Positions 8,224-27,300 of a stretch of DNA of 27,919 bases are shown one piece after another (position 1 is the first letter of the stretch; each line of letters opens with the position of its first letter). The stretch spans positions 1-27,919 of IMG/VR virus record IMGVR_UViG_3300000115_000137; one strand, given 5' to 3'. A program made the translations under genes and the position numbers. The notes beneath the pieces were generated by a model, which had not been told where the DNA came from, ran no database searches, and worked only from the letters and a program-made list of their open reading frames with translations. The stretch is from a virus.

Positions 8224-8468
8224 TGAATAAAAATTGGTGTCAGCGGACCCACATAGGCGCCCGCAATATTAAAATCGAAATACTCCATCGCCTCAACCTC
8301 ACTCATACCGTGCTCGTTGACGAGCAGCTCCATGATGCGGCCCGTATCGTAACACGTCCGCCAACCCTCGTCAACCTCCGTGATGCCGATGATGGCTTCG
8401 TCAAAACCGTCGGCGAAAAGGGTATTAGCGCCTAAAGGCTCCAGCCACCTCTCTATATATTCCCTCAT
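8211..8468 (-). CDS. Unknown 85-aa protein between groEL and groES
   Basis: It begins MREYIERWLEPLG and contains FADGFDEAIIGITEVDEGWR, a YDTGRIMELLVNEHGMS segment, and YFDFNIAGAYVG near the end. Proteins with an FADGFDEA...GMS..EA.EYF.FN..GA pattern are, as I recall, conserved in various phages without a known function. It has ATGA coupling to groEL upstream and overlaps groES downstream. One copy of the 14-bp dispersed palindrome (8312-8325) encodes its LVNE. Its co-expression with the chaperonin is clear; a part in folding is only a guess. Confidence 0.65.
   Translation of the reverse strand: MREYIERWLEPLGANTLFADGFDEAIIGITEVDEGWRTCYDTGRIMELLVNEHGMSEVEAMEYFDFNIAGAYVGPLTPIFIQCVL
8312..8325. 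repeat. Dispersed palindrome copy 1 (in the 85-aa gene)
   Basis: GCTCGTTGACGAGC, identical to the other copies. On the minus strand the host gene reads it as Leu-Val-Asn-Glu. Flanks T and A extend the symmetry to 16 bp. Confidence 0.9.
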
Positions 8469-9997
8469 GCCCGTGCGAGAGTAATGATGGCCCGAGTGCT
8501 GAGGATGGTGACGGCAACGCTGACAGCGTTTTGCAATGCCGTCTTGGTCACGCGAGCCGGGTCGATGATGCCCATCTCCATAAGGTCGCCGTACTCGCCG
8601 CTCTTAACATCGAAACCAAAGCCGTCGTCAGTCATACTGTAGTCGTAGTCGACACCAGCGTTGGTCATGATTTGGTCCATGGGGGCGCGAAGAGCCGCGC
8701 AAAGGATGTCGGAAGCAATGCCGCCAGAAAGGGTAGAGCTGATGTTGTACAGCGTGACGCCAGCGCCGGGAACGACGCCGTCCTGCATAGCAGCGCGGAC
8801 AGCGCACACAGCATCGTCGACACGGTCGTATAGCTCCTTCTGCTCCAAGTCAGTATGGCCACCGACCTCAATGACGCCAATGCCGCCGGTGAGGCCCGCG
8901 ATGCGTTGATGGATGAAGTCTTTGTCTCCCTTGCGCTGGGCAAGCTTATGAGCCTCGTGAAGCTCAGCAATGCGCTCGTCGACGCCGTCCTCGCGAGCCT
9001 CCTTGACGATGATTGTCTCGCCACGACCCACAACAATGCGGTCCGCAAAACCCAAGTCGCCAAGGTCCATAAGGCTTAAGTCGTCGCCCGTCTTCTCACT
9101 GTAGTACGTGGCACCAACAATAACCGCCAAGTCTTGCATAAGCTCGTGCTGCTTATACCCGAAATTGGGAGGAGGAACAACGCAGACCTTTAATCCCTTC
9201 TTGACCACATTGGCAGCAAGGGTGTTGATGACGTGAGTGCTGCACGGAGCAACGATGAGAAGACGCTTGCCCTCACGGATGATAGGACCCAAGACGTTCT
9301 CGATAGCCAAGACGTTGTTTATCTCACTGTCGCAAACCATAACGTGGCAGTCCTCTAAGACGCACTCGTCACGACTCTGGTCGTTGACAAACAACTCGCT
9401 CGAATAACCACGGTCGAGCTTGAGCCCGTGGGTGACGTTGAAGCCGGTGTCGCTGGTCATGCTCTTCTCGACAGTGACAACACCGTCTTTGCCCACCTTG
9501 CCATATACGTCAGCAATCAACTTCCCAATAGCCCTGTCGTTGTTGGCGCTGATAGTAGCTACGTTGCGAACGTGCTTCTTAGTTAAACGACGACTGCGAC
9601 TGTCAATGTCCGCAACAACACCGCGAGTAAGCTCGACCAACTCGCGCAATACATCCGTCTTGTTGGCGTCGTCCAGCTTAGCAATACCACCCTTGACCAA
9701 AGCCTCAGCCAAAACAATGCTCGTAGTAGTACCATCACCCGCCTCACTGGCCGTCCGGTCAGCAGCCTCCTTCATCATGCGGACAGCTAAGTTCTCGACA
9801 GGGTCAAGCAAGTCCACAGCCTTAGCCACAGTAACACCGTCCTTGGTAACTGTAATGCCATGGGTGTGGTGAGGACTCTCGATAAGTACCGTCTGGCCGC
9901 TCGGGCCAAGCGTGGACTTTACCGCCTTGGATAACTGCTCAATGCCACGGATGAGCTTGTCGCCTTCGAAGTGAAGGTCTTTAGGTATTTCATTCAT
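8465..9997 (-). CDS. groEL: Chaperonin GroEL (60 kDa family)
   Basis: This 510-aa protein is shorter than E. coli GroEL (548). It has the nucleotide-binding segments STLGPSGQTV (residues 28-37), TKDGVTVAKA (51-60) and AGDGTTT (86-92, with the conserved Asp88). A VDDAV...RAAMQDGVVPGAG segment near residue 390 holds the second ATP-pocket Asp region. It ends at ILSTRAIITLARA and has no Gly-Gly-Met tail. It folds proteins in the cytoplasm in an ATP cycle with GroES. It is the first gene of a leftward operon whose promoter lies at 10005-10035 and contains two TGTCGG-type boxes. It may help fold virion proteins or replace host GroEL; this is inference. Confidence 0.95.
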   Translation of the reverse strand: MNEIPKDLHFEGDKLIRGIEQLSKAVKSTLGPSGQTVLIESPHHTHGITVTKDGVTVAKAVDLLDPVENLAVRMMKEAADRTASEAGDGTTTSIVLAEALVKGGIAKLDDANKTDVLRELVELTRGVVADIDSRSRRLTKKHVRNVATISANNDRAIGKLIADVYGKVGKDGVVTVEKSMTSDTGFNVTHGLKLDRGYSSELFVNDQSRDECVLEDCHVMVCDSEINNVLAIENVLGPIIREGKRLLIVAPCSTHVINTLAANVVKKGLKVCVVPPPNFGYKQHELMQDLAVIVGATYYSEKTGDDLSLMDLGDLGFADRIVVGRGETIIVKEAREDGVDERIAELHEAHKLAQRKGDKDFIHQRIAGLTGGIGVIEVGGHTDLEQKELYDRVDDAVCAVRAAMQDGVVPGAGVTLYNISSTLSGGIASDILCAALRAPMDQIMTNAGVDYDYSMTDDGFGFDVKSGEYGDLMEMGIIDPARVTKTALQNAVSVAVTILSTRAIITLARA

Positions 9998-10015
9998 AGT
10001 CCAACGAAGGTACTA

Positions 10016-10192
<177 letters not shown>

Positions 10193-10198
10193 AAACAA

Positions 10199-10226
10199 GA
10201 ACACCCCGGACTTTTCCGAGGTGCTC
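10199..10226 (-). terminator. Possible minus-strand hairpin terminator
   Basis: On the minus strand the arms GAGCACCTCGGA and TCCGGGGTGTTC pair over 12 bp with two G-U pairs and an AAAG loop. A T-rich TTGTTTGT follows. It could insulate groEL from leftward transcription. On the plus strand the pairing has two mismatches. Confidence 0.4.
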
Positions 10227-10435
10227 CACCTTAACCAAATTGCTCGCACTTGTCTGCTTGCAATAAAAAGGTAGAGTTTTTTAAGTAGGTGTACGTAGTG
10301 TTTGGGTTCTATAGCGTTTGACGTAGGCCAGCCCAAATCTGAAGTCAACTTTTTTCGATAGGGGGGGGTCATGTTTTGGATTCCGCATCCGGATTGTTTG
10401 GCGTTTTCTGTGGGCGTACCACCACCGCCACCTCC

Positions 10436-10449
10436 GCTCGTTGACGAGC
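10436..10449. repeat. Dispersed palindrome copy 2 (non-coding)
   Basis: GCTCGTTGACGAGC in the C-rich part of the control region. A decayed relative (GCTCGTCGAACGACC) starts about 11 bp further right. Confidence 0.9.
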
Positions 10450-10612
10450 ACCACCACCCGCGCTCGTCGAACGACCACCTCCCGTCCCCTGCCTGTAACG
10501 AATGGCATCCCCCCACCCCATCCACGCATCCCCCGAAGAGACATGGGGAGGGTCCGCTTTACCCCACCCCATGTCCCGCTCACCTGTAACGTCTCGCCTG
10601 TAGCCCTGCACT

Positions 10613-10626
10613 GCTCGTTGACGAGC
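10613..10626. repeat. Dispersed palindrome copy 3 (non-coding)
   Basis: GCTCGTTGACGAGC with T and A flanks, 76 bp upstream of the TTG element of the 10737 gene's promoter. Confidence 0.9.
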
Positions 10627-10701
10627 ACCTTGTGTGTCTCGCCCTGTTGACGCGCTCCGTGGTCGGTTCACACCCGTTGGCTATTAAATATCACTTCTGT
10701 C

Positions 10702-10732
10702 TTGTGAGATTAGAAATGTTGTCGTACACTTG
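10702..10732 (+). promoter_or_regulatory. Bacteroidota-type promoter for the 10737 gene
   Basis: TTG (10702-10704), 20 nt, then TACACTTG (10725-10732). The AT-rich stretch before it (TTAAATATCACTTC) resembles those before the promoters at 12278, 13400 and 15233. The ATG lies 4 bp downstream, so the transcript should be nearly leaderless. Confidence 0.65.
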
Positions 10733-10736
10733 TGCT

Positions 10737-11435
10737 ATGCAAAATACAAACACCCCCCAAGCGGACGCGCCGACCGCTACCAACTACAAGTTCGGCGGAG
10801 GTTTCACCACCAACACCATCACCACTGCTGTCGACAAGATTGGCAAGCTAAAGGCTGAGGCTTTCGACAGGTCACTTGCCCTCGGCGAGAAATTGCCGCA
10901 GGTCTCAGAGGCTTGGAAGGAGACGCTGAAGGAGCAGTTCAAGGCTAACCCTGACTTGCCCAATGGATGGGACCAAGCTGTTCCCCACCTCACCAATGGC
11001 ATGAGCCGGTCATGGATGAACAAGCTGATTCAGGCGGCGAAGAGTGCCACCCCTGAGTTGGTCGAGGCGTACAAGTTGGCTGAGCAGGAGAAGAAGCAAG
11101 ACCCAAGTGTCGAGCGGTTCATCGACTACTGCAAGGCTTGCGCTGATTCGGCTGATGGCGAGAAGGTGGAAGCGGGCGATACGCGCTCGTCAACGAGCGG
11201 CAAGTACGTTGGTCAATTCCAAGTGAGCGGAGCTTGCCCACAGGCTGTTCGCATCACTCCCGGACGAGTCATCGAGACTGAGGCTGAGGAGGAGGACATC
11301 ATCGTCGGTCTCGCCATCCTGCGTGAGGCTCTCCTTGCGTCCGGCATGACCAAGGCGGCGGCGGCCATCCGCCCTGTCAAGGACGAGGAGCTGATGGCCC
11401 ATGTCACTTCATGGATGACCACCGAGCCTGCGTAA
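10737..11435 (+). CDS. Unknown 232-aa protein, first gene of the rightward region
   Basis: The ATG at 10737 (MQNTNTPQADAPTATNYKFG) is chosen because a promoter ends 4 bp before it. An in-frame GTG further upstream would start before that promoter. The product is mainly helical and charged in the middle (EAYKLAEQEKKQDPSVERF), with a short Ser/Thr part (DTRSSTSGKY) that comes from an embedded palindrome at 11185. It ends in an acidic-helical region (ETEAEEEDIIVGLAILREAL). No known family was recognised. As the first rightward gene with its own promoter and terminator it is likely well expressed, perhaps early. Confidence 0.7.
   Translation: MQNTNTPQADAPTATNYKFGGGFTTNTITTAVDKIGKLKAEAFDRSLALGEKLPQVSEAWKETLKEQFKANPDLPNGWDQAVPHLTNGMSRSWMNKLIQAAKSATPELVEAYKLAEQEKKQDPSVERFIDYCKACADSADGEKVEAGDTRSSTSGKYVGQFQVSGACPQAVRITPGRVIETEAEEEDIIVGLAILREALLASGMTKAAAAIRPVKDEELMAHVTSWMTTEPA
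11185..11198. repeat. Dispersed palindrome copy 4 (in the 232-aa gene)
   Basis: GCTCGTCAACGAGC, read in this gene as Arg-Ser-Ser-Thr-Ser rather than Leu-Val-Asn-Glu. C and G flanks extend the symmetry. Confidence 0.9.
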
Positions 11436-11437
11436 CT

Positions 11438-11451
11438 GCTCGTCAACGAGC
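11438..11451. repeat. Dispersed palindrome copy 5 (directly after a stop codon)
   Basis: GCTCGTCAACGAGC starts 3 bp after the TAA of the preceding gene and is followed by GGCCCCT and the terminator at 11460. Confidence 0.9.
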
Positions 11452-11459
11452 GGCCCCTG

Positions 11460-11487
11460 CCTCGCAACCTTCGGGTTGCGGGGTTTT
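11460..11487 (+). terminator. Rho-independent terminator with TTCG loop
   Basis: The stem CCTCGCAACC pairs with GGTTGCGGGG (10 bp, one G-U) around a TTCG tetraloop, and TTTT follows. It ends the 10737-11435 unit. Confidence 0.8.
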
Positions 11488-11518
11488 GGTGGTGCAACCC
11501 ATTAACAAACACAATGCT

Positions 11519-11935
11519 ATGAAGCGCAACAAGAGAAACAATGACGGCTACCAAGGGAAGGTAGAGTTCTGGGAGGACCAATTGGCCCTCGCAAAACAGG
11601 CGAAGGAGTTCGCCCTTGTGGACCACTCACGCTACTCCCTCGAGCGTTGCAGGGAGAGCCTTGCATACTTCAAGGGCAAGCGGGCCGCCTACCTTGAGCA
11701 AAAGGCAAAGTCGGATGCTCCGATGATGCCCCGTCCTGAGGACGCACATCAGCGGGCGTTGGATGCTTGCCGCAGTAAGTTCGAGGGCTTGTCTGAGTCC
11801 GAGCGACTGATGCTCGCCAACAAGTTCATCACGGACGGGTTGGGAGTGGGCATCCCGTTGAACAACACCATGGCCTTCCTACAGGAGGCGGGCGTGATAT
11901 CGGACACGGAGTTGATGCACTCCATCACGTTCTGA
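11519..11935 (+). CDS. Unknown 138-aa helical protein
   Basis: The ATG at 11519 (MKRNKRNNDGYQGKVEFWED) is chosen because the longer frame would run back through the terminator and palindrome of the previous gene. The protein is mostly charged helix (LALAKQAKEFALVDHSRYSL, YFKGKRAAYLEQKAK) with a C-terminal part SESERLMLANKFITDGLGVG. No catalytic motif is visible. It sits between two terminators in a single-gene unit, but no good promoter was found in the 30 bp before it. Confidence 0.6.
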   Translation: MKRNKRNNDGYQGKVEFWEDQLALAKQAKEFALVDHSRYSLERCRESLAYFKGKRAAYLEQKAKSDAPMMPRPEDAHQRALDACRSKFEGLSESERLMLANKFITDGLGVGIPLNNTMAFLQEAGVISDTELMHSITF

Positions 11936-11938
11936 ACT

Positions 11939-11952
11939 GCTCGTTGACGAGC
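11939..11952. repeat. Dispersed palindrome copy 6 (directly after a stop codon)
   Basis: GCTCGTTGACGAGC begins 3 bp after the TGA of the 11519 gene. GGCCCCT and a terminator follow, as after copy 5. Confidence 0.9.
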
Positions 11953-11961
11953 GGCCCCTCG

Positions 11962-11988
11962 CCTCGCACCTCTCCGGTGCGGGGTCTT
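11962..11988 (+). terminator. Rho-independent terminator
   Basis: The stem CCTCGCACC pairs with GGTGCGGGG (9 bp, one G-U) around a TCTCC loop, followed by TCTTGG. The T-tract is weak. Arms and layout resemble the terminator at 11460. Confidence 0.65.
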
Positions 11989-12008
11989 GGGGGTAGAAGA
12001 CATTCGAT

Positions 12009-12260
12009 ATGAGCAAAATAAATTGGAACCACTTGGTGGTCAGCTTCAGCGCACACGACCCTGAGACAACGACGGCCCGCATGGCCATGCTTTCGTTGAC
12101 CACAGGCATTCACCTCAACGACTTGGAAAATGCGGTTTGCGTTGCCTTCGAGACTGACTCCGTCATCGACGTCGAGGGCGGCGGCATTGTCCACCTCATT
12201 GAACCTGTGTCCCGCATCCCGAGCGGTGTTCGGTTCATCATCAGTAATATGCACCTTTAA
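12009..12260 (+). CDS. Unknown 83-aa protein
   Basis: It begins MSKINWNHLVVSFSAHDPET and is composed of alternating hydrophobic and acidic stretches (NAVCVAFETDSVIDVEGGGI). It ends IISNMHL. No family was recognised. It lies alone between a terminator and the next promoter. The frame is intact and its codon use resembles the neighbours. Confidence 0.55.
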   Translation: MSKINWNHLVVSFSAHDPETTTARMAMLSLTTGIHLNDLENAVCVAFETDSVIDVEGGGIVHLIEPVSRIPSGVRFIISNMHL

Positions 12261-12277
12261 ATTAAATGCTAATTCAC

Positions 12278-12308
12278 TTGCACAGACAAAACATTATTAG
12301 TACATTGC
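12278..12308 (+). promoter_or_regulatory. Bacteroidota-type promoter, near-leaderless
   Basis: TTG (12278-12280), 20 nt, then TACATTGC (12301-12308). The ATG at 12312 follows after 3 bp. The AATTCaCTTGCA context is shared with the promoters at 13400 and 15233. Confidence 0.7.
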
Positions 12309-12311
12309 ACT

Positions 12312-12602
12312 ATGTTTGAGATACAGCCCACCGCCCTCCTTGCCCCGACCTCTTCCGGGCATACTGACTTGACCGCAGTACTGGTCACCGAGTACGGCCC
12401 ATTGCAGGGTCATGCCTCACCTGTGATTAGCCGCCAAGAGGTATCGCGCTACCACAGGTTGGACTCTACCCACATCCGTGTTCGTAGGGTAGACAATGAC
12501 AACTGCTCGTTGACGAGCAGTCACGAGATGTGCTTTCACATTGGCCAACTCGTCTCTGATTCACCCTTGCTCGAAGCGGCAAAAATCGTCCTCAACAAAT
12601 GA
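12312..12602 (+). CDS. Unknown 96-aa protein
   Basis: It begins MFEIQPTALLAPTSSGHTDL and carries a Cys-Ser-Leu-Thr-Ser segment from an embedded palindrome (12505). It ends LLEAAKIVLNK. No family was recognised. The start is supported by the promoter just upstream, which implies a leader of only a few bases. Its stop overlaps the next ATG as ATGA, so it begins a three-gene coupled unit. Confidence 0.6.
   Translation: MFEIQPTALLAPTSSGHTDLTAVLVTEYGPLQGHASPVISRQEVSRYHRLDSTHIRVRRVDNDNCSLTSSHEMCFHIGQLVSDSPLLEAAKIVLNK
12505..12518. repeat. Dispersed palindrome copy 7 (in the 96-aa gene)
   Basis: GCTCGTTGACGAGC, read here as Cys-Ser-Leu-Thr-Ser. T and A flanks extend the symmetry to 16 bp. Confidence 0.9.
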
Positions 12603-12739
12603 CACACATTTATTTCTGCATCACCGTATTGCTGACTATCGGCATCTTCTACCTCCTGACATACGACCCTGCTGTGGGTCTCATGTTCTCCCTTCTCACG
12701 TTCGCATTCGTCGCGGCATATTGGTTGCGCTACTCATGA
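12599..12739 (+). CDS. 46-aa two-span membrane protein
   Basis: It is joined by ATGA overlaps to the genes on both sides, which supports a real gene. The product is nearly all hydrophobic: a first span MTHIYFCITVLLTIGIFYLL, a short TYDPAVG turn, then a second span (LMFSLLTFAFVAAYW) and a basic end. A small inner-membrane protein is clear. A holin or an anti-host membrane function is only possible. Confidence 0.6.
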   Translation: MTHIYFCITVLLTIGIFYLLTYDPAVGLMFSLLTFAFVAAYWLRYS

Positions 12740-13188: not shown

Positions 13189-13385
13189 CGAAAGAGAGAA
13201 TGTTCTTCAGCCAATTGAAATCAGGCAAGTGGCATTGGCACAAAGACCTGACGACCATCACCCTTGAGATGACGACTGCACAGATGTGGGTTGTATCCAC
13301 GTTGCTTCGGCTTGTGCCTTGGTACAGGGTTTTGGTTGCGAACCAAGCCAAGATGGAGCGTATCAGGAAGAGTTTCCTAAAATAA
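13185..13385 (+). CDS. Unknown 66-aa basic protein
   Basis: The ATG at 13185 overlaps the previous stop (ATGA); an earlier in-frame ATG lies inside the preceding gene. The product begins MTKERMFFSQLKSGKWHWHK and ends KMERIRKSFLK, with a mildly hydrophobic centre (WVVSTLLRLVPWYRVLV). It ends the unit started at 12312. The role is unknown. Confidence 0.5.
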   Translation: MTKERMFFSQLKSGKWHWHKDLTTITLEMTTAQMWVVSTLLRLVPWYRVLVANQAKMERIRKSFLK

Positions 13386-13399
13386 ATATATCAATTCGC

Positions 13400-13430
13400 T
13401 TGCATAGTTCAAACATTAGTTGTACATTGC
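13400..13430 (+). promoter_or_regulatory. Bacteroidota-type promoter
   Basis: TTG (13400-13402), 20 nt, then TACATTGC (13423-13430), with upstream AATAAATATATCAATTCGC. The first ATG lies 18 bp after the second element. Confidence 0.7.
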
Positions 13431-13448
13431 GTCATCATTCAATACACC

Positions 13449-13955
13449 ATGCCACACCCAACCCCGCTCGTTGACGAGCGCAAAACAATAGACATGAAAG
13501 ACAAACTCATCAATGCCAAGGTCATCTATCCTACCCTTGGTCACACCGTACTCAGTACGGGTCAGGATGTACACCGAGACGAGAACGTCGAGGTCATTGT
13601 TCATGTAGGCACTAAGGCTTCGGGCCATGCGTGGTTCGAGTTCCACGACACCAAGTGGGACGGCGAGAAATACTACGCCGAGGGTGGCCTTGAGATTCAC
13701 GGCGGCAAGCTCGTTGACTACGATGGTGTCGGGTCGTTGCCCACTGCGGTGATGGACATCCTTACCAACGAGTTCGGCATCGACGTGACGGAGGTGTACG
13801 ACAATGACGGACAGCCCAACAAGTACAAGGTGTTCAAGTACCACGTTGACGGCAAGGCGTTCGACGATTGGAACGATGCCTATGAGTACATCCACTCACT
13901 CAACCTTGACCGCGATGCTAACCGCGCCAAGTTCAATTCAATACAAGAGCTATGA
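13449..13955 (+). CDS. Unknown 168-aa protein with a palindrome-encoded N-terminus
   Basis: Residues 1-15 (MPHPTPLVDERKTID) are largely encoded by a palindrome copy. A second in-frame ATG (MKDKLINAKVIYPTL) at 13494 could be the original start. The rest is rich in Asp and His, with segments HAWFEFHDTKWDGEKYYAEG and LTNEFGIDVTEVYDNDGQPN. No family was recognised. It opens a tightly coupled unit (ATGA and TAATG joints) running to 15213. Confidence 0.55.
   Translation: MPHPTPLVDERKTIDMKDKLINAKVIYPTLGHTVLSTGQDVHRDENVEVIVHVGTKASGHAWFEFHDTKWDGEKYYAEGGLEIHGGKLVDYDGVGSLPTAVMDILTNEFGIDVTEVYDNDGQPNKYKVFKYHVDGKAFDDWNDAYEYIHSLNLDRDANRAKFNSIQEL
13466..13479. repeat. Dispersed palindrome copy 8 (near a gene start)
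   Basis: GCTCGTTGACGAGC, read as Leu-Val-Asp-Glu at residues 7-10. C and G flanks extend the symmetry. Confidence 0.9.
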
Positions 13956-15213: not shown

Positions 15214-15232
15214 AATAAATGTATCAATCCGC

Positions 15233-15263
15233 TTGCATAGTCCGGCTATTATTTGTATATTGC
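15233..15263 (+). promoter_or_regulatory. Bacteroidota-type promoter
   Basis: TTG (15233-15235), 20 nt, then TATATTGC (15256-15263), with upstream AAATAAATGTATCAATCCGC nearly identical to that at 13381. The gene start lies 19 bp downstream. Confidence 0.7.
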
Positions 15264-15282
15264 AGTATGATTCATAACTACA

Positions 15283-15513
15283 ATGAGAGTATACGTTCGG
15301 GCCAAGAGCAAGGCAGAACTCAACCGCCGATTGCGGGCGGGGGAGAAGATAGAGGTGCTAGAGTACGGGCTACTTCGTCACGGCGTAGGGTTCACCCTTG
15401 GGGTGGACGTTCATGACGGAGCCGAGGTTGCCATCTTCAGTAAAATTCAAAATGGGTTTCCATATGCGCACACCATGGCGACCTATATCAAAAATAAAAA
15501 TAAAGTGCAATGA
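15283..15513 (+). CDS. Unknown 76-aa protein
   Basis: It begins MRVYVRAKSKAELNRRLRAG, with AKSKAELNRRLRAGEKIEVL forming an obvious helix-strand unit, and ends KNKNKVQ. The promoter at 15233 precedes it, and an ATGA overlap joins it to the next gene. No family was recognised. Confidence 0.5.
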   Translation: MRVYVRAKSKAELNRRLRAGEKIEVLEYGLLRHGVGFTLGVDVHDGAEVAIFSKIQNGFPYAHTMATYIKNKNKVQ

Positions 15514-15938
15514 ACGAACAAGTTTCCCCCCCGCTCGTTGACGAGCAGTCAACCCCGGAAGTCACGCCGCAGACTCGTGACACATTACTCGAACAGCTCA
15601 ACTTCCTTATCGACGGAGCGCGTTCCAACCTGATGGACATGAAGGCAAGCCTTGCCATCGACGGCCCCTTGCTCAAGCCTGAGCCTCAGTATACCAAGGA
15701 GCAGGTCATCGAGATGTTGCGCTCTGCGTACGACCTCGGAGCTACGGCACACGAGGAGAGCATGGAAGTACAGACGGATAGTTGGAGGGGTGGCGTCGAG
15801 TTAAACGTCGAGGTGGAAAGCGGCGGCTTCAGTTACAACGGAGATGTCACTGTAGAAGAGGACGCCATCAAGGAGTTAGTCAGCTTTGCCGACCACAAAA
15901 TGTCCGACGAGCATATCGAAGGAATCCTCAAGTCATGA
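15510..15938 (+). CDS. Unknown 142-aa protein with a palindrome near its start
   Basis: Residues 1-16 (MNEQVSPPLVDEQSTP) include a palindrome-derived Leu-Val-Asp-Glu. Then comes a helical body (TRDTLLEQLNFLIDGARSNL, YTKEQVIEMLRSAYDLGATA) and an acidic C-terminal part. No family was recognised. Overlap joints on both sides show that it is part of an operon running through to the recombination genes. Confidence 0.55.
   Translation: MNEQVSPPLVDEQSTPEVTPQTRDTLLEQLNFLIDGARSNLMDMKASLAIDGPLLKPEPQYTKEQVIEMLRSAYDLGATAHEESMEVQTDSWRGGVELNVEVESGGFSYNGDVTVEEDAIKELVSFADHKMSDEHIEGILKS
15533..15546. repeat. Dispersed palindrome copy 9 (near a gene start)
   Basis: GCTCGTTGACGAGC, read as Leu-Val-Asp-Glu at residues 9-12. 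It sits in the same place relative to a start codon as copy 8. Confidence 0.9.
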
Positions 15939-16438
15939 AGAACAATTCTCAAACCCGCAGTTATGCGGAAGCCGTTGGTCAGGCTATGGCCTTCGGGCTT
16001 GGTGTCACCTGCTGTGACATCTTCAACAACCCTAAAGTGAGCGGCTACATTCACGGGGTCAATTCCGGCCAAGAGGTGCAGATGCCCGCTTCCCATGGGT
16101 TCACCATGGACAGCTACTTTTTTTGGAGAGAGATGATGTACAAGGCTGAGACCTTGGGGCATGAGCGCAAACAAGACCCGTGCGACTATGGCGTAGCCAT
16201 ACACCGCATGGGTGACGTACTCATAATGAAAACGGTGCGGTGTCATACGTTCTTTGAGAACGCCCTTGACGGAGCCGAGACAGAAGGTACAGAGAGTACA
16301 ATCATAGACGTGTCTGACTTAGACAAGAGCATCTATCTTGAAGAACACGGACGTGTACCGGGAACCTATGGAGAACTCGAAGAAGGAAGAAATGGTGGAG
16401 CTTCAGGCTTTACTGACGGAATTAGAGCGGGGCTATGA
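15935..16438 (+). CDS. Unknown 167-aa protein
   Basis: The ATG at 15935 (MKNNSQTRSYAEAVGQAMAF) overlaps the previous stop (ATGA). The middle contains HGFTMDSYFFWREMMYKAET and YGVAIHRMGDVLIM. Its last 24 codons overlap the next gene in another frame. The tail there (GRNGGASGFTDGIRAGL) looks like out-of-frame translation, so the true product could end differently or a frameshift may lie near 16370. No family was recognised. Confidence 0.5.
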   Translation: MKNNSQTRSYAEAVGQAMAFGLGVTCCDIFNNPKVSGYIHGVNSGQEVQMPASHGFTMDSYFFWREMMYKAETLGHERKQDPCDYGVAIHRMGDVLIMKTVRCHTFFENALDGAETEGTESTIIDVSDLDKSIYLEEHGRVPGTYGELEEGRNGGASGFTDGIRAGL

Positions 16439-16526
16439 GCAACGCTATGGAAAAGATTCAATATGGAATTCATTAAAGAAAACAATACATCATGTCCAGA
16501 AACAACTCCGTAGTCGAGACCAATGA
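16368..16526 (+). CDS. 52-aa coiled-coil-like protein
   Basis: The ATG at 16368 opens a frame with a long charged helix (MENSKKEEMVELQALLTELE, then RGYEQRYGKDSIW). It overlaps the preceding gene by 71 bp and the ParB-like gene by 35 bp. The heptad-like spacing of Leu argues for real coding. The long overlaps make one of the three borders uncertain. Confidence 0.45.
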   Translation: MENSKKEEMVELQALLTELERGYEQRYGKDSIWNSLKKTIHHVQKQLRSRDQ

Positions 16527-17232
16527 CTACTCTCAATTCTCGTTTATCAAACTCAACAGACACGTTGACGATGGCCACGTCAAGCGTCTTGCCAAAGACA
16601 TCCACGACAACGGCTTAAGCCAACCCATCCTCGTCGATGCCGAGGGTAACATTCTTGAGGGTCAGCACCGCTTCCTTGCTTGCCAATCGCTTGGCATCAA
16701 CGTCAAGTACATTGTTACTGACGCAATCAGCATCGACAGGGTGGTGGTTCTTAACAGCCTGTCCAAGGCGTGGACTCCGTTAGACAAAGCGCGTAGCTAT
16801 GCCGCCCAAGGCAACGACCATTACATCAGGCTACTTGACTTCCTTGAGGAGTGCCAAGCGGTCGAGCCCAAGGTGTCGTTACGCATCGCGAGTATGTTGG
16901 CTCAGGGCAGTGCCGCTACAGCCAACACCAAGCAGAAGAAGATGAACCTCGGCGGTGGCACATGGGAGTTTCGCGACAGCAAGGAGGCGGCCATGGAGAG
17001 GCTCGATGCTCTGATTCAGTTCCGGCGTTGGGATTTCTACCTGAAGTCTAACTTTGTAACTGCGTTCTTGCGGTGCTTGCGTACCATCGAAGGCTTCGAT
17101 TGGAAGACGTTGCTTGAACGCGCAGAGAAGAACCCGCACTTATTTGTTCATGCCGCCTCTACTGAAGAGTTCTTGCGTGTCTTCGAGAATGTATACAACT
17201 ATCGTCGTCGCTCTCACGTCAGATTCTTTTGA
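16492..17232 (+). CDS. ParB-like N-terminal (ParB/sulfiredoxin fold) domain protein
   Basis: This 246-aa protein has a ParB-type domain at about residues 16-85: VKRLAKDIHDNGLSQPILVD, then GNILEGQHRFLACQSLG. The box GQHR (57-60) matches the GxHR/GxxR motif that binds nucleotide in ParB proteins. The C-terminal half (WTPLDKARSYAAQGNDHYIR, later WKTLLERAEKNPHLF) is not a standard ParB helix-turn-helix but recalls ParB-like proteins of Bacteroidota phages and plasmids. Its roles could include binding DNA sites, regulation or nicking. It lies just upstream of the recombination genes. It is a candidate, by inference only, for binding the dispersed 14-bp palindrome. Confidence 0.75.
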   Translation: MSRNNSVVETNDYSQFSFIKLNRHVDDGHVKRLAKDIHDNGLSQPILVDAEGNILEGQHRFLACQSLGINVKYIVTDAISIDRVVVLNSLSKAWTPLDKARSYAAQGNDHYIRLLDFLEECQAVEPKVSLRIASMLAQGSAATANTKQKKMNLGGGTWEFRDSKEAAMERLDALIQFRRWDFYLKSNFVTAFLRCLRTIEGFDWKTLLERAEKNPHLFVHAASTEEFLRVFENVYNYRRRSHVRFF

Positions 17233-17234
17233 AG

Positions 17235-17734: not shown

Positions 17735-18324
17735 AAGAGTCCATCTACAACACGCTTCAGGCCATCGACGTCAGCTCATTCATTGAGAAGAAGGGCCATA
17801 ATGACTACCTGCCTTGGGCGCGGGCTTGGTCTTTGCTAAAGCAGAACTACCCCAATGCTCAGCGTATCATCTATGAGTCTGAGCACACGGGACTCAACTA
17901 CTTTACTGACGGCAGGTGGGCCTATGTTAAGGTGGGTATCGTCGTGGAGGAGCAAGAGCACATCGACATGCTTTGTGTCATGGACCACCGCAACAACTCC
18001 ATCCCGATTGACAAGGTCAATAGCTTCGAGGTCAACAAGACCATTCAACGCGCTACCGTGAAGGCTATTGCGATGCACGGCCTTGGACTTTCGCTGTGGC
18101 TGAAGGAGGATACCTCAGTCGCTAGTAGTAAGGCCAAGGAAGCACCCTCTAAGCCGCTCGTCAACGAGCGCATTAGTCTTGAGGTCGATGACAAGAACTG
18201 GGCCAAGGTCTTGAAGTTCGTCATTGAGCAGAAGGACAAGGGGCTTCCATGGATTCTTGAGCAGTTGCGCACCAAGTACAAGGTGAGCACCAAAGTCCAG
18301 AAGGCATTGAAGGAGAACCTATGA
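17731..18324 (+). CDS. Single-strand annealing protein, Sak3/DUF1071 type
   Basis: In this 197-aa protein, DYLPWARAWSLLKQNYPNAQ (residues 25-44), NYFTDGRWAYVKVGI and VNKTIQRATVKAIAMHGLGL (about 102-121) match the DUF1071/Sak3 annealase pattern. This is a Rad52-like group that pairs complementary single strands. The C-terminal domain (KVLKFVIEQKDKGLPW) is separated from the core by a linker that contains a palindrome copy. The exonuclease follows at once with an ATGA overlap, the usual phage recombination pairing. It acts on phage DNA in the cytoplasm. Confidence 0.8.
   Translation: MKESIYNTLQAIDVSSFIEKKGHNDYLPWARAWSLLKQNYPNAQRIIYESEHTGLNYFTDGRWAYVKVGIVVEEQEHIDMLCVMDHRNNSIPIDKVNSFEVNKTIQRATVKAIAMHGLGLSLWLKEDTSVASSKAKEAPSKPLVNERISLEVDDKNWAKVLKFVIEQKDKGLPWILEQLRTKYKVSTKVQKALKENL
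18156..18169. repeat. Dispersed palindrome copy 10 (annealase linker)
   Basis: GCTCGTCAACGAGC encodes Leu-Val-Asn-Glu at residues 143-146, between the annealing domain and the C-terminal domain. C and G flanks extend the symmetry. Confidence 0.9.
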
Positions 18325-19345: not shown

Positions 19346-19375
19346 TTCATCTCCCTTACTCCATCAGACGGAGCG

Positions 19376-19403
19376 AGAGGGGGGCAACGGCCCCCCTCTT
19401 TTG
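19376..19403 (+). terminator. Strong rho-independent terminator
   Basis: The stem AGAGGGGGGC pairs perfectly with GCCCCCCTCT around an AACG loop, followed by TTTTG. It closes the rightward unit that ends at 19345. Confidence 0.9.
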
Positions 19404-19407
19404 TCTG

Positions 19408-19571
19408 TGTCGAATGTCGATTTTCTTTCCCCCTTATAGAGAGAGAGAGAGTACTTTACTTTTCTTTTCTCCTACATACATACAAGGAGAATCGACATAA
19501 CCGACACTAAGACTGAGTATCAGTATTTTAACTACAATATATCGACACCAAAAGCGACACACCTATGTCGG
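19408..19571 (+). promoter_or_regulatory. AG/CCGACA control module, copy B, before the primase-helicase gene
   Basis: TGTCGA occurs at 19408 and 19415, TCGACA at 19492 and 19542, CCGACA at 19501, GCGACA at 19554 and TGTCGG at 19566. The order tgtcg-aatgtcgattt, TCCCCC(T)TAT, AG tract, TACTTT, then ccgacact and actgag.atcagt, matches 10016-10140 in the same orientation. The last box lies across the ATG of the 804-aa gene. No clear TTG-N20-TAnnTTTG promoter was found here, so the start site is open. Function as operator or origin is inferred. Confidence 0.6.
19438..19451. repeat. (AG)7 dinucleotide tract
   Basis: Fourteen bases of AG in the same context as the (AG)15 tract at 10046, in the second copy of the control module. 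Confidence 0.85.
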
Positions 19572-21979: not shown

Positions 21980-23193
21980 GGAGCTATCAACGGACCATTG
22001 TTGACAAGGCCAAGGTCATACTCAGGAAGCACAAATTTGTATACCTCGCCATGGAGGTGCGCACGGGCAAGACCATCACCTCACTGAAGATAGCTGAGGA
22101 GATGGGTGTCCAGAGCGTGCTGTTCCTGACCAAGAAGAAGGCGTTGGGTAGCATCGGAGAAGATGCCAAGAAGCTGTGTCTCCCGTATGAATTCTTCGCC
22201 ATCAACTACGAGAGCATGCATAAGCTCCCGAAGATTAACTGGGACCTCATCATCTTGGACGAGGCACACGGGCTTGGGGCCTTCCCTAAGGCTAGTAAGA
22301 GAGCTAAAGCCGTGCGGGATATGACGCGCAACAGGTTCGTCATCTTGCTGTCCGGCACCCCTACTCCGGAGTCGTACAGCCAGATGTACCATCAGGTCTA
22401 TGGGATAGACACCAACCCCTTCCGTGGGTACAAAAACTTCTACCGCTTTGCTGACGATTACGTCGACGTTCAGGAGCGCGTCATCAACTCGTTGCCAATG
22501 AAGTTCTACGACAAGGGACTGCCGTCTATCCTTCTGGCCATGAAGCCGTACATGATTAGCTTCAGTCAAAAGGACGCGGGCTTTCAGAGTCAGCTCAACG
22601 AGCATATCCTCCGCGTACCTATGGAAGACAGGACATACAGAATGTGCTCGGAGCTACGCAAGCACCGCGTCATCGACGGGAAGGAAGAGGTTGTGCTCGC
22701 CGATACCCCGGTCAAGCTTATGCAGAAGCTACACCAGATGTACTCGGGTACGGTGAAGTTTGAGAGCGGGGGGTATATGGTCTTCGACCACAGCAAGGCG
22801 CAGTATATCCACGACAGGTTTAGGTCAGACAAGGTTGCCATCTTCTACAAGTTCAAGGCTGAGCTACAGGCTTTGAAGAACGTCTATGGCGACGAGCTAA
22901 CCACCGACCTTACCGAGTTTGATACTACCGACAAAAGCATTGCGTTGCAGATAGTCAGTGGCCGCGAGGGCATCAGCTTACGCAAGGCTTCGGCGCTCGT
23001 GTACTACAACATCGACTTCTCCGCCACCAGCTACTGGCAGTCGCGAGATAGGATGACGACCAAGGACAGAAAAGAGAGCGACATCTATTGGGTATTCGCG
23101 GAACGTGGCATAGAAACAAAAATCCACAAAGCGGTGTCAGGTAAGAAGGACTACACGTTGAGTCACTTTCGAAGGGACGTTCTTACCTTGTAG
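21970..23193 (+). CDS. SF2 DEAH-type helicase (SNF2/restriction-like)
   Basis: In this 407-aa protein the motifs appear in order. They are LRSYQRTIVDKA (Q-like), MEVRTGKT (Walker A, about 28-35), IILDEAHG (DEAH at 97-100), LLSGTPTP (motif III, 127-133), IVSGREGISLRKA (motif V) and SYWQSRDRM (motif VI, 354-362). It would use ATP to move along or remodel DNA. It has no fused nuclease, but the next gene is a VRR-NUC nuclease. The pair may process branched replication or recombination intermediates. It overlaps the primase gene by 10 bp. Confidence 0.9.
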   Translation: MELRSYQRTIVDKAKVILRKHKFVYLAMEVRTGKTITSLKIAEEMGVQSVLFLTKKKALGSIGEDAKKLCLPYEFFAINYESMHKLPKINWDLIILDEAHGLGAFPKASKRAKAVRDMTRNRFVILLSGTPTPESYSQMYHQVYGIDTNPFRGYKNFYRFADDYVDVQERVINSLPMKFYDKGLPSILLAMKPYMISFSQKDAGFQSQLNEHILRVPMEDRTYRMCSELRKHRVIDGKEEVVLADTPVKLMQKLHQMYSGTVKFESGGYMVFDHSKAQYIHDRFRSDKVAIFYKFKAELQALKNVYGDELTTDLTEFDTTDKSIALQIVSGREGISLRKASALVYYNIDFSATSYWQSRDRMTTKDRKESDIYWVFAERGIETKIHKAVSGKKDYTLSHFRRDVLTL

Positions 23194-23198
23194 GTAAG

Positions 23199-23438
23199 AT
23201 GACGGAGCAGCAGATACAGTCGCGGAGAATCAAGGAATTGGAAGAGGAAGGCTACTATGTCATTAAGCTCATCAAGACCAACAAGAACGGCATCCCCGAC
23301 CTCGTAGCTATACCCCCTAACAGTGGCGTTCTTTTCTCCGAAGTCAAGAGGCCAACGGGCAAGGTGTCTAAGCTTCAGGAGTACCGCATGAAAGAGCTGA
23401 GACAACATGGTATCGAAACAGAAGTATATCGAGGTTGA
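23199..23438 (+). CDS. VRR-NUC domain nuclease
   Basis: This 79-aa protein consists of a stand-alone VRR-NUC domain. GIPDLVAI carries Asp34, and FSEVKRPTGKVSKLQ carries Glu48-x-Lys50 and the Gln further on. The PD-(D/E)XK-type active site is complete. VRR-NUC proteins of phages are thought to resolve Holliday-type or flap structures. It starts 5 bp after the helicase stop, and its end overlaps the next gene by 32 bp. Confidence 0.9.
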   Translation: MTEQQIQSRRIKELEEEGYYVIKLIKTNKNGIPDLVAIPPNSGVLFSEVKRPTGKVSKLQEYRMKELRQHGIETEVYRG

Positions 23439-23718
23439 AGAACCGTATGAGATTGACGAAGCCTTTGTCGACGGCATCATGAAGGTCGCGCCAAAGCATC
23501 GGGTTCGCGTACTGAAGCAGATAAAGGATTCGCTAGAGTACTTCGAGTTCAATGAAGAGGACACCTCCGAAGCGGGTGGCCGCGTCGACGGCGACCTATA
23601 CTACAAGATTGAGTACTACAATGTTGAGGAATGGGTACCTGTTCTCCTTGATTTTACTACCATCGATTGTGACGAATACCTCGACATGATGATAGACAAA
23701 AAACTAATATTACAATGA
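23407..23718 (+). CDS. Unknown 103-aa acidic protein
   Basis: It begins MVSKQKYIEVEEPYEIDEAF and is acidic throughout, with KHRVRVLKQIKDSLEYFEFN in the middle and an end DKKLILQ. The start lies within the VRR-NUC gene, in another frame. An ATGA overlap joins it to the following gene. No family was recognised. Confidence 0.5.
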   Translation: MVSKQKYIEVEEPYEIDEAFVDGIMKVAPKHRVRVLKQIKDSLEYFEFNEEDTSEAGGRVDGDLYYKIEYYNVEEWVPVLLDFTTIDCDEYLDMMIDKKLILQ

Positions 23719-24227
23719 ATGAACCTCCACACCACCCGAACCAAGTGAGTCGCCTTGCCGATATTTGTTTCGTGTGCTTTCACGGTGATGTATACAGCCG
23801 GTGTCGGGAGCGTCGATACGTTGACTCCCGTATATGTTTCTCTATGCTCGTCAACGAGCAGGGAGTTACGCCAACACACATCGGTCGCATCCTTGGTCGC
23901 AACCACTCTACCGTCCTTCATTACATACGGAAAGGAGAGATGTTGTTAGAGACCAACAAGCCCTTCCGAAAGAAATACATCTATGCCCGCGAAGAGTACA
24001 TCGGCGAAGACCCCGTATTCTACTACTCTCCACCTGAGTTGAGAGGTAAGTTCTTAGAGCTACAGAAGGACTACGAAGAGATACTCGACAAGTATCAGGA
24101 CCTGCGTAAGCACGTCAAGAGCGAGCGCCGTCTCGAGCGATTGATAGACTTGGTACGAGAACGCACCAAGCCCGGGACAGAACAAGAGGTGCTCATCCGA
24201 TTGAACAGGATATACAACGGACTATGA
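23715..24227 (+). CDS. DnaA domain-IV-like HTH protein with a coiled-coil tail (170 aa)
   Basis: Residues 36-75 (VDSRICFSMLVNEQ, then THIGRILGRNHSTVLHYIRK) match the DnaA C-terminal DNA-binding domain. GRNHSTV at 61-67 is close to the DnaA signature GRDHSTV. The ATPase domain is absent. A charged helix of about 80 residues follows (LELQKDYEEILDKYQDLRKH). A palindrome copy encodes Leu-Val-Asn-Glu (45-48) in the first helix. It may bind DnaA-box-like sites in phage or host DNA, to start or to control replication; this is inference. Confidence 0.75.
   Translation: MNEPPHHPNQVSRLADICFVCFHGDVYSRCRERRYVDSRICFSMLVNEQGVTPTHIGRILGRNHSTVLHYIRKGEMLLETNKPFRKKYIYAREEYIGEDPVFYYSPPELRGKFLELQKDYEEILDKYQDLRKHVKSERRLERLIDLVRERTKPGTEQEVLIRLNRIYNGL
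23846..23859. repeat. Dispersed palindrome copy 11 (in the DnaA-like gene)
   Basis: GCTCGTCAACGAGC encodes Leu-Val-Asn-Glu in the first helix of the DnaA-like domain. T and A flanks extend the symmetry. Confidence 0.9.
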
Positions 24228-24373
24228 AGTGCCCGGAGTGCCGTAAGACCATGACGTGGACCGGTGACCACGACTCCAAAGACGGAGACACCGATTTACT
24301 TATGGTCTCTTGGCGCTGCAAGAACGAGGACTGCGACGTTCGCTTTATCGATATACACTGGTCACTCGTCTGA
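24224..24373 (+). CDS. 49-aa zinc-finger protein resembling Ogr/Delta
   Basis: It is joined to the DnaA-like gene by ATGA. The product starts MKCPECRKTM (Cys3, Cys6) and has WRCKNEDCDVRFIDIHW (Cys32, Cys37). The spacing CxxC-25-CxxxxC followed by a basic and Phe residue is that of the Ogr/Delta zinc fingers that switch on late genes in P2-like phages. It is shorter than Ogr (72 aa). The last 12 bp overlap the end of the large leftward gene. A role as late-gene activator is inferred. Confidence 0.55.
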   Translation: MKCPECRKTMTWTGDHDSKDGDTDLLMVSWRCKNEDCDVRFIDIHWSLV

Positions 24374-27300
24374 CTCCGGCCTTGTTGTCTTCGGTATTCC
24401 CAGAGCTTCATAGGTACCCTCGGTAACCTCTTCTCCTTCCGCTATCTTATACAGACCACGGAACATATCAAAGTTGACTCCCAGTCCGTACTCAAATATC
24501 TCGGACACGGCACGCCCGTAACGCTCTTCTTTAAATGATTTTTTGACCTCACGTATTAAGCCTTCCAGTGGGTCCAAACCAACCGACGCTTTAAAGTCGT
24601 CGCCGGCGAGAGCGTTCATGACTTGCTTCACTTGAGCACCAACTATGGGTATAAGAGTAAGGGGACCCAAGGGAGACACAAGCATTCTCTTCAACGCCTT
24701 CTCTCTGTCTTCTTTATCTCCTTTAATTAGCAGAGAAGCGTTGGCTGCCATCGTCCATATTACGTGACCATATATTGCGTTAAGGTAGAAGCGGCGCACG
24801 TCCTTCGAGCTTGGCTTCTCTCCCTTTCTTATGGCCCTCAGGATTTTGTTTCCGGCCTGAATAGTGTTGTTGGCATAGAGGAAGTATGTGCTTCCGAAGG
24901 CTGTGAATAGCCGCAATATTCCGTTCTGATAAATCTGTACCGGAACCCTTTCCGAAGGTCGGCGCGACTGCTGTGTCACATTGAAGTCGTTGAACTTCTC
25001 CAGAGCTTCCTCCTTTGACATCCCGTTCTCAATGTTGCGGCGGTAGTTGACAAAGTATCCCATCACACCACCGATATCTCCGATGGCCGTGGTCATACCG
25101 CCAGCCCGTTCCATGCCCTTCACAAACCGCTGTCCCTTTTTGAACTTATCGCGTGGGTTTCGTATGCCTACGCTGCCTTGTTCCAAGGTGTATATGTCTC
25201 CGCTGAATCCTTGCTTTACCCGCTGCTGGAACGTAGCCGATATATCCATAGCCTCGGCTACAGGTCCCTTGTATTTCCCTAGCGTAGCGAGCTCAGCCAG
25301 CATGTGTACTGTAAGGCGAGCCACATCGAAGCTAAACATCAGGGCGTCAGTAAACCTGTTGGAGTCAGGGCGATACTTGTACCCCTCAAAAGCCATGGGG
25401 ATAGACGCAAATTGTTTGAATGCCTGAAACACCTTGAAGGCCAGCGCGGCAAAGGTGAATTTTTTAGTCATCCAATCCGCAAGTGGATACGACATCTCCG
25501 AAACAAATTGCTCGGGGTTGACACTGTTGTTGACCAACAGGTTCAGCATCTGGTTACCGTTGAATACCGTAAGCAGCGAGCGCAACTCTTGTGTGGAAAG
25601 GATGCTATTGATGTCCCTCGTTCCTTCCGCAAAAGCCTTGAACCTTTCCATGCTTTTGTTGTGCTGTTCCAGCACTTGGAAAAAGCTGAGGCCACCCGCT
25701 TCGGAGCCAAGGGCAATCTCACCCGTAGTTGCGGTACGCAACTTCAAAGCCGATGCCGTCTGTGCTGACGGCATGCCCAACAACCCCTCCTTCAGCTCAT
25801 TGATAGAAACCTTTGTCGGCACCAGCGTTTGTGTAGGGAAGTAGTTCTCTATGTGTGGGAGATTAACGCTATTGACGCTACGGTATACATCGTTGATGCC
25901 CTCGTAGTATTCGTTGGACAGGAAGTCTACCGTCTTCTCTACAAACTCCTTGAGCCTAGGGTCTATGATGGCGTCGAGCTCAGACATGTCTATGCCCATC
26001 TCTACAAGGCGCTGCCTCTGTAATGGGTTCAAAGACAAAGCATACAGCCGCATGAGGCTATCCATGAAGAAAGCCTGCTGCCTACCCTTCATGTTCAGGG
26101 TAAACATCTTTGTGTTGGACATCGCCAGCTCCGCTATCTCCGCATACCCGTCTTCAATACCGTCGATGCTGTTGGCCAGCTCATCTATTTTTGCAGACAG
26201 GTTGATTACCCCCCTGTTGTACTCCTCTTCCATCCTGTTGACCGAAGAGAAGATGTTCTCGTAGAAGTAGTCTCCGAGGATGCTGGAATATGTACCTAGG
26301 TGGATGCCTTGCCTAAGACCTTTGGCCAACTTTCCCGCGCTCTCTTGACTCATGGTCTTCATCAAGTCCTTGAGCATGTCGTATTTCTCCCGTGCGGTAG
26401 AGTCCTTCCACCGCGCTAGGATTACGCTACGCTTGGCACCAATCTCATTGTCGTTCATCGGAAGCCCATCGGGACCGAGGATAATAGACCCGTAGTTTGA
26501 CGCTACGTCTTCCGCTGCACCTTGACGTAGGGCTTCTGCCCTGCGTGCATTGATGAGTCGCTGCTGGTTGAGAGCAAAGCGGGAGAAACCCTCGTTGATA
26601 CGCAAGTCTTCGAGCACGGCCTCCCTCTCTTCGAGGTTCATGTCGAGCAGGCGGATGAACATATCGTATGCGCTGACCCTATCGAGTAGCGACTGTTCCT
26701 TTACGGTAAGCTTGGCGCCCTCGTTGCGAGCGTTAATCAGCTCGTTGACGAGCGCGTTATTTGCGTGCTCTTCTGCCATCCGCCCTAGCGTCTCGACATC
26801 GTTGTTCTTTATGGCGAGCATCACCCTCTCCGCCTCTTGGAAATAAGCCTGTCCGGCGGCGTCTAAGCCACGGGTACGCACCCTACCTGATGAGGTTTTG
26901 TATGTGCGTGCGGCCTTACGAACAAAGCGTTGTATGTCCTTCAGGACATTGTTGCTCATCTCCTGCCTCTTGGATTCTATGACCGAGATAAGTTTCTCTG
27001 CCTCTACCTGATAGTTTTTCTCATTGACCCTATCGATGATGCCAAGCATCCTTTTGACCTCACCTTTAGAATACACAGCTTTTGGCAAAGCCTCTTCCAT
27101 CAGGGCTCGCATCTGATTCTTCACCTCGGCAGCCGCCTTGGCTCCCTGCTTACGCATACTGATGTTGTTACGCAGCTCGCGCAACTTGTTTTGTATGCCC
27201 TTGTTGGCGCGGGTACTCATAGCCCTGTTAAAGCCTACGACCATCTTATCCTGCAAGTCGGGCGTCTGCTTCTTAAACTCTGGGTTCTCCGTCAGTAGCT

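Follow-up and report, generated by a model that had tools for sequence, protein, structure and literature searches.

A candidate phage-encoded regulator for a 14-bp near-palindrome dispersed through an uncultured phage genome and its relatives

Introduction

The IMG/VR virus record IMGVR_UViG_3300000115_000137, a stretch of 27,919 bases analyzed here as a whole (the window), carries twelve identical copies of a 14-bp near-palindrome, scattered inside and between genes. This distribution raises the question of what keeps so many copies of the 14-mer in place. In the explanation that we favor, and consider reasonably likely, the 14-mer serves as operator for a helix-turn-helix (HTH) protein that the phage encodes, here called DBP, in an autoregulated, stoperator-like network of dispersed operators. 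DBP is the first early gene and a divergent neighbor of groEL, and among related phages its presence and sequence follow those of a dispersed palindrome.

Results

Copies of the 14-mer in the window

An earlier note on this DNA, made from the sequence alone, had placed exact copies at twelve positions, and every coordinate was confirmed. On the + strand, eight copies read GCTCGTTGACGAGC and four read GCTCGTCAACGAGC. The window contains no single-mismatch copies, and a search to ≤2 mismatches added only one site, with two mismatches. A chance origin is excluded, the exact pattern being present in 0 of 100 dinucleotide shuffles of the window. As a check, codon-preserving shuffles of the window (n = 200) had 0.305 copies on average and never more than 2, compared with 12 in the real sequence. 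The proposed extension to YGCTCGTYRACGAGCR applies to 11 of the 12 copies but not to the one at 26740, where the 5′ Y fails.

Two other statements of the note hold within the window. They were compared with contig G002 (64,877 bases), which is near-identical to the window (130 of 139 sampled 200-base words exactly in common). The center is never TA in the window, but one copy in G002 is TA-centered; the fiber block is free of copies in the window, but G002 has copies at 16101, 42784, and 44248 that the window lacks. G002 holds 16 exact 14-mer copies and two with one mismatch. The two ends of this contig share a stretch of 251 bases (8 mismatches), and the two exact copies in this overlap are probably one place, giving 15 distinct copies. 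A single predicted gene of approximately 12.9 kb in G002 (39426-52355), of which the window has only the end, contains three copies.

Five window copies are intergenic (10436, 10613, 11438, 11939, and 13466) and seven are intragenic, with the genes at 12312-12602 and 23715-24227 placed by hand in the gene map. The reading LV(N/D)E predominates, as had been noted (5 of 7 intragenic copies), and the remaining two are read in another frame, as RSSTS (11185) and CSLTS (12505). The two reading frames and the intergenic copies uphold the view that the element is not a coding effect, and they rule out peptide-level selection as its cause. The element is therefore maintained at the DNA or RNA level. 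The exact 14-mer occurs in at least 118 IMG/VR stretches, and 78 of 80 loci among the matches listed have a single copy, so that its repeated use looks specific to the window's phage species.

The candidate operator copies, and two hairpins noticed by eye beside them, are as follows.

8312-8325, + strand: copy 1, within a small gene (8211-8468, - strand); the G003 and G007 orthologues show substitutions and no insertion
10436-10449, + strand: copy 2, in the divergent groEL/DBP control region
10613-10626, + strand: copy 3, in the divergent groEL/DBP control region, with the DBP start 110 nucleotides (nt) away
11185-11198, + strand: copy 4, within the DBP gene
11438-11451, + strand: copy 5, with the DBP stop codon 2 nt upstream
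11460-11487, + strand: terminator-like hairpin and T run, directly after copy 5
11939-11952, + strand: copy 6, with the stop codon of gene 11519-11935 3 nt upstream
11962-11984, + strand: terminator-like hairpin, directly after copy 6
12505-12518, + strand: copy 7, within gene 12312-12602; a look-alike gene in G007 (by eye) has G007's own site
13466-13479, + strand: copy 8, in a probable 5′ leader, with an ATG (13494) 14 nt downstream
15533-15546, + strand: copy 9, in gene 15510-15938 at approximately codons 8-13, where G007 carries a site of its own
18156-18169, + strand: copy 10, in the Sak-like annealing protein gene, in a linker of variable length
23846-23859, + strand: copy 11, within the DnaA-C-like gene 23715-24227
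26740-26753, + strand: copy 12, within a large - strand gene that runs from 24362 past the end of the window

Relatives carry their own palindromes

Many relatives found through the primase have dispersed near-palindromes of their own whose arms differ from those in the window, such as GTGTCTTCAAAGACAC, GTCCGTTCAAACGGAC, GAGGGTTTGAACCCTC, GTTCGGTGACCGAAC, and ATTAATCCGGATTAAT; some others had no standout motif within the stretch examined. In MW202828, the closest named record, arms of GTGTCGTTAACGACAC occur in 14 exact copies within 14 kb. We mapped 167 sites in 15 contigs (≤2 mismatches, set by contig; 5 to 18 sites per contig), a total that counts the probable end duplicate of G002. These sites crowd gene junctions. 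By gene maps from a simple predictor of our own, 52 of the 167 lie inside predicted genes, compared with 146 expected (P = 7e-64).

AGGWCCT repeats (AGGWCCTNNAGGWCC type) topped the motif scan in five loci (L275, L356, L360, L372, and L373) and were set aside, as they are apparently collagen-like (Gly-Pro-X) coding repeats. In the early region of L304, where no DBP was found, AACAAGGGGAGCGCAATGCTCCCCA occurs five times at gene junctions and is thus a further dispersed palindrome.

DBP presence and sequence follow the palindrome

DBP was found by listing the neighbors of groEL, which revealed an early gene for a protein of approximately 170-245 amino acids (aa) nearby in most contigs. The genes concerned in the window are as follows.

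10737-11435, + strand: DBP, a 232-aa predicted HTH protein; first early gene and proposed binder of all copies
8465-9997, - strand: groEL (PHROG 5725, E = 4e-123), divergent neighbor of DBP; anchor and phylogenetic control
7572-8000, + strand: winged-helix-like gene (by eye), annotated as a repressor protein in MW202828; rejected as the binder

DBP from the window is 39% identical to that of G007 and has no blastp match in G003 or G005. Many genes neighboring DBP are 50-95% identical among the same contigs, but matches are likewise missing for a few further small early genes.

To the window we added 271 groEL-fetched loci (L265-L535, from four groEL-anchored scans), 8 long contigs, and MW202828. 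After exact duplicates were dropped, 165 distinct loci with >900 bases upstream were kept, near-duplicates among them; DBP was present in 78, and none was found in 87. Motifs were scored in the 106 loci with ≥4 kb of early region (61 with DBP and 45 without), which left 59 unscored, and three or more exact copies were called a palindrome. A dispersed palindrome was present in 57 of the 61 loci with DBP versus 6 of the 45 without (Fisher P = 4.5e-18). One of these six, L277, has ten TTTCCGACNNGTCGGAAA-like sites, and judged by eye, its first early gene resembles a highly diverged DBP, overlooked by the profile. In 56 of 57 loci, the interval separating the groEL and DBP starts holds a site, usually 190-280 nt ahead of the first ATG in the DBP frame, a position that fits autoregulation.

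The 57 palindrome loci were reduced to 47 by a 93% groEL identity filter. With groEL removed, similarity of the HTH segment correlated with that of the palindrome at a partial r of 0.60 (47 loci; P = 0.0005, the lowest value possible with 2000 permutations), and similarity of the whole DBP did so at 0.66 (45 loci; P = 0.001, the lowest possible with 1000). Two control genes in the same 45 loci gave no such signal: the partial r was 0.05 for the winged-helix-like gene (P = 0.34) and 0.003 for a GroES-like gene (P = 0.48). Early-side controls were run on subsets of 37, 33, and 31 loci; in the last of these, the Sak gene yielded an r of -0.16, compared with 0.68 for DBP. At a groEL identity of 0.80-0.95, identity of the HTH segment was 0.65 in 19 same-palindrome pairs versus 0.22 in 4 different-palindrome pairs. 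On inspection, the segment is mostly G(W/Y/F)Q-KS where the arms are GTGTCTT; it is GYN-KSFFYD where they are GTCCGTT and GY(K/A)D(R/K)S where they are GGGGGTT, and in loci with ATTAATCC it has GL(S/A) and then IP 4-5 residues on. It is this covariation of presence and sequence with the palindrome beyond groEL, unlike that of most control genes, that points to DBP as the binder.

DBP belongs to no family that our searches could name. Pfam and PHROG searches with the window protein yielded no match, and Pfam searches over 60 members gave scattered weak matches, none common to the members. Two of eight relatives had weak PHROG matches, both to families of unknown function. PDB sequence searches were uninformative, and Foldseek against PDB gave no match at E < 0.001. 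A BFVD search found four unnamed relatives, and DBP from L312 matched a single record among named phages, MW202828, at E < 0.001.

The AlphaFold2 model of a relative's DBP, built from a 46-row alignment, is small and mostly helical, with a mean pLDDT of 93.2; the model of the window DBP is less sure (80.8). In the relative's model, helices at 76-84 and 88-98 have HTH-like spacing, and a C-terminal strand-strand-helix unit could allow the modeled protein to dimerize. The best matches of this model among known structures are weak and comprise KorB in complex with operator DNA (Z = 5.3; 101 residues, 3.8 Å), Spo0J with parS (5.1), and P1 ParB (3.8). Those of the window model are Leafy (Z = 4.1) and SopB (Z = 4.0). 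Matches at this level of Z may reflect no more than a common arrangement. We saw no ParB-like N-terminal CTP-binding α/β domain, and the relative's model has no strand of ≥3 residues before residue 171.

Sites arise mostly by substitution in place

The earlier note had suggested that the 14-mer might be an in-frame element inserted as a unit, similar to the Rickettsia palindromic element (RPE). We aligned 11 site positions in 7 genes with relatives. Seven proved to be base substitutions in place, which rules out such insertion, and four fell in length-variable stretches. In gene 8211-8468, a set of substitutions distinguishes the window's site from the G003 and G007 sequences. In the helicase gene, the same codons hold a GTGTCTT-type site in G008, G013, G014, and G017, and G016 has its own GTCCGTT-type arms there (one mismatch). 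Indels are involved at the sites in TerL and in the linker of the Sak protein.

Hammerhead ribozymes adjoin many sites in relatives

Hammerhead cores of types I and III were first noticed beside sites in relatives (e.g., L259, L232, and L229, early intergenic). A stem-aware scan, requiring the CUGANGA and GAAA core, three stems, and a GUH cleavage triplet, found 65 sense-strand hammerheads, spread over 33 of the 61 DBP loci; the antisense strand had none, and neither did a single shuffle of each locus. Distances were scored for 63, the other two being in loci without a clear palindrome. Of these, 56 lie ≤20 nt from a site and the remaining 7 at 203-750 nt; 16 hammerheads enclose the palindrome within stem III. 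The window itself yielded no hammerhead. Four hammerheads matched the Rfam families RF00008 (E = 8e-7 and 2e-5) or RF00163 (E = 5e-4 and 5e-3), all under the gathering scores. Loci without DBP had 15 hammerheads in 12 of 45, indicating that the ribozymes do not depend on DBP.

Genomic setting

Besides groEL and the Sak-like annealing protein, the window encodes an exonuclease, a primase-like protein, and a helicase. MW202828 is the 60,850-base genome of an uncultured podovirus of Manatee Spring, and its primase is 67% identical. Megablast of window bases 1-25000 against named phages gave no match. The host is likely a member of the Bacteroidota, judging by weaker relatives in Flavobacterium and Cellulophaga phages. 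A pattern-limited primase scan of genome contigs found five, all from metagenome-assembled genomes, which establishes no host or prophage.

Several further features were seen by eye. The regions before groEL (10002-10140) and before the primase-like gene (19385-19565) have GA-repeat tracts in common and several TGTCGG/CCGACA-like words, and they may represent a second motif, of a regulatory or an origin type. Promoter-like stretches of the TTGCAYAG...GTAYATTGC type lie upstream of small early genes at approximately 12278-12309, 13400-13431, and 15233-15264. In a related phage contig, L225, Rfam identified a tRNA (9398-9471, - strand; 67.9 bits).

Discussion

Taken as a regulatory system, DBP would occupy its own control region, the junctions of early genes, and selected intragenic positions, and when bound would repress or roadblock the transcription of phage genes, its own included. 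The DBPs of the window, L312, and L276 would each recognize their own palindrome (GCTCGTYRACGAGC, GTGTCYTYRARGACAC, and ATTAATCCGGATTAAT). We consider it very probable that DBP binds the 14-mer directly as a dimer. That the system acts in transcription is likely, and blocking of the polymerase is, by a little, the mode of repression that we would expect. The wholesale change of specificity between close relatives might be driven by escape from the DBP of a co-infecting or resident relative, in the manner of immunity, although we regard this as doubtful.

Several observations weigh against this interpretation. Covariation with the palindrome is seen for the gene adjoining DBP as well (r = 0.48, P = 0.001, 37 loci; DBP there 0.57) and, weakly, for a further early gene (r = 0.24, P = 0.04, 33 loci; DBP there 0.56): the early region is inherited in blocks. 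We read the covariation of the neighbor as linkage. DBP retains a partial r of 0.36 (P = 0.001) when groEL and the neighbor are both removed, and the neighbor retains 0.09 (P = 0.19) when groEL and DBP are. This lack of signal beyond DBP, together with the fact that 10 of the 47 loci, among them the window, do not have the gene, rules out the neighbor as the binder. At a groEL identity of 0.50-0.60, HTH identity is nearly the same in same-palindrome pairs (0.23, 9 pairs) and different-palindrome pairs (0.21, 43 pairs). The signal also extends along the protein (r = 0.66 for the N-terminal part and 0.54 for the C-terminal part; only 0.13 for the HTH segment beyond the N-terminal part, P = 0.048), so that the covariation names the protein but leaves its contact residues unmapped. 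Four of the 61 DBP loci have only two exact copies. A Bacteroidota-type promoter pattern, with 44 matches versus 36 in shuffles, is too weak to place sites by promoter. Neither PF00589 (tyrosine integrase) nor PF00239 (serine recombinase) was found in 10 long contigs, which are possibly incomplete, and the immunity idea is weakened accordingly. Finally, the palindrome is not symmetric in use. Its center is oriented with transcription in early regions (CA 144 versus TG 20, counts in which sites inherited across related loci are not independent), unlike the expectation for a symmetric dimer, and asymmetric half-sites favor G-U over A-C in sense RNA by 46 to 23 (P = 0.008), a hint of RNA-level selection. 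The window's own sites have no clear orientation bias. The sense orientation and the G-U excess lead us to keep open an added RNA role for the palindrome, as a hairpin or ribozyme stem, beside its role as a DNA operator.

An explanation at the RNA level seems unlikely to us. It would make the palindrome mainly a hairpin at mRNA 3′ ends, produced by hammerhead cleavage or by termination, with DBP binding or tuning RNA. The closeness of hammerheads to sites, the palindromes enclosed in stem III, the G-U preference, and the sense-oriented center all suit this explanation, as do the extra flank pairing of intergenic tandem sites (3.75 of 7 versus a background of 2.61) and the T run that follows 13 of 89 such sites. 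However, sites in divergent control regions (2.73) and within genes (2.85) have little extra pairing, 28 of the 61 DBP loci and the window yielded no hammerhead, 55 half-site mismatches are neither Watson-Crick, G-U, nor A-C, and the modeled DBP has an HTH-like helix pair. The sites might instead be a dispersed centromere. The phage-plasmid N15 has dispersed parS-like centromere sites, and DBP would then be a ParB/SopB-like partition protein with parS-like sites. We consider this improbable: the weak structural matches to KorB, Spo0J, P1 ParB, and SopB and the presence of a separate ParB-like gene at 16492-17232 speak for it, but ParA (PF13614 only) was detected in 0 of 10 long contigs, compared with 14 of 14 control genomes, and the sites crowd gene junctions. 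The gene at 16492, beyond the window's species, matched only G003, G004, and G005 among the contigs compared, and these matches in close relatives only also rule it out as a common binder. Without an integrase or ParA match in the 10 long contigs, which may be incomplete, lysogeny and partition alike lack support, although persistence outside the chromosome would be compatible with this result.

Two more alternatives appear very improbable. The winged-helix-like gene at 7572-8000, our first candidate binder, is conserved near groEL in the family and carries the repressor annotation in MW202828, but its copies in G003 and G007 are nearly identical while the palindromes of these contigs are unrelated, and it shows no covariation in the 45 loci. 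A selfish or host-derived iterated repeat (HIP1-, RPE-, or uptake-sequence-like), with no phage-encoded binder, would account for exact copies within and between genes. HIP1 is an octamer, GCGATCGC, repeated across a host lineage. It differs from the 14-mer in sequence, and the arms here change between related phages, where they track one phage gene; the finding that 7 of the 11 aligned site positions are base substitutions in place is a further argument against such a repeat. Thus, of the likeness to HIP1 and RPE drawn in the earlier note, the remark that the sequence is unlike either stands, but the comparison of kind does not, since the 14-mer is neither an inserted element nor a genome-wide iterated palindrome.

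With DBP as the binder of a DNA operator, the adjoining ribozymes suggest a tentative extension, in which operator and hammerhead form one composite switch at the gene junctions of this phage family. DBP on the operator would halt the polymerase before the ribozyme is complete. With the operator free, the full transcript would be made and then cleaved a short way 3′ of the palindrome, leaving the palindrome as the 3′ hairpin of the upstream mRNA. If this is true, one protein sets transcription as well as mRNA processing throughout the early region, with the entire network rewired to a new specificity in different lineages.

A regulator with a dozen sites is expected to be hard to rewire, as the protein and every site must change together. 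The dozens of environmental phages compared here represent many finished rewirings, some with sites at orthologous positions under different arms, and regulator-operator co-evolution thereby becomes directly measurable. The DBP family, unannotated in Pfam, would supply natural DNA-binding specificities, and the adjacent hammerheads offer a possible regulatory partner for natural phage ribozymes, which bears on their role.

Dispersed operators of a phage regulator are already known. As the earlier note had supposed, no previous description of this element was found in a literature search made mostly without subscription journals and without preprints. As far as that search shows, the DBP family, the many palindromic specificities within one phage group, and the operator-hammerhead pairing are new. 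The nearest parallel is with the stoperators of Cluster A mycobacteriophages (L5, Bxb1, and Trixie), described as many dispersed copies, most of them distant from promoters, mostly in one orientation relative to transcription, and with motif and repressor diverging jointly between related phages (PMC6550527); the repressor is described as monomeric and the sequence that it recognizes as asymmetric (PMC9283540). Here as there, near-identical sites are dispersed inside and between genes and change along with the phage regulator. Stoperators differ in being 13-bp sites of a group with lysogens, whereas the sites described here are near-palindromes of 14-18 bp in phages with no integrase match, the arms differ strongly between relatives, and the DBP family is absent from Pfam.

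In the Bacillus phage SPbeta, a repeated 15-bp element, SPBRE, is reported at several promoter regions under one phage master repressor, MrpR (PMC10516654). MrpR has a tyrosine-recombinase-like fold, unlike the small, mostly helical model of DBP, and intragenic sites are frequent here. KorB of plasmid RK2 is described as repressing plasmid promoters from OB operators, some of them >1 kb away (PMC11790492). Its DNA-binding domain is the top, albeit weak, structural match of a relative's DBP, but KorB is a CTP-binding clamp of the ParB family, and the DBP model lacks a ParB-like N-terminal domain. Multiple hammerheads flanking genes have been described in prophage genomes, with a proposed function in processing long transcripts (PMC3088659). 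The part of that report considered here states no link between those ribozymes and a protein operator, whereas in the phages compared here most of the scored hammerheads adjoin or enclose a candidate operator.

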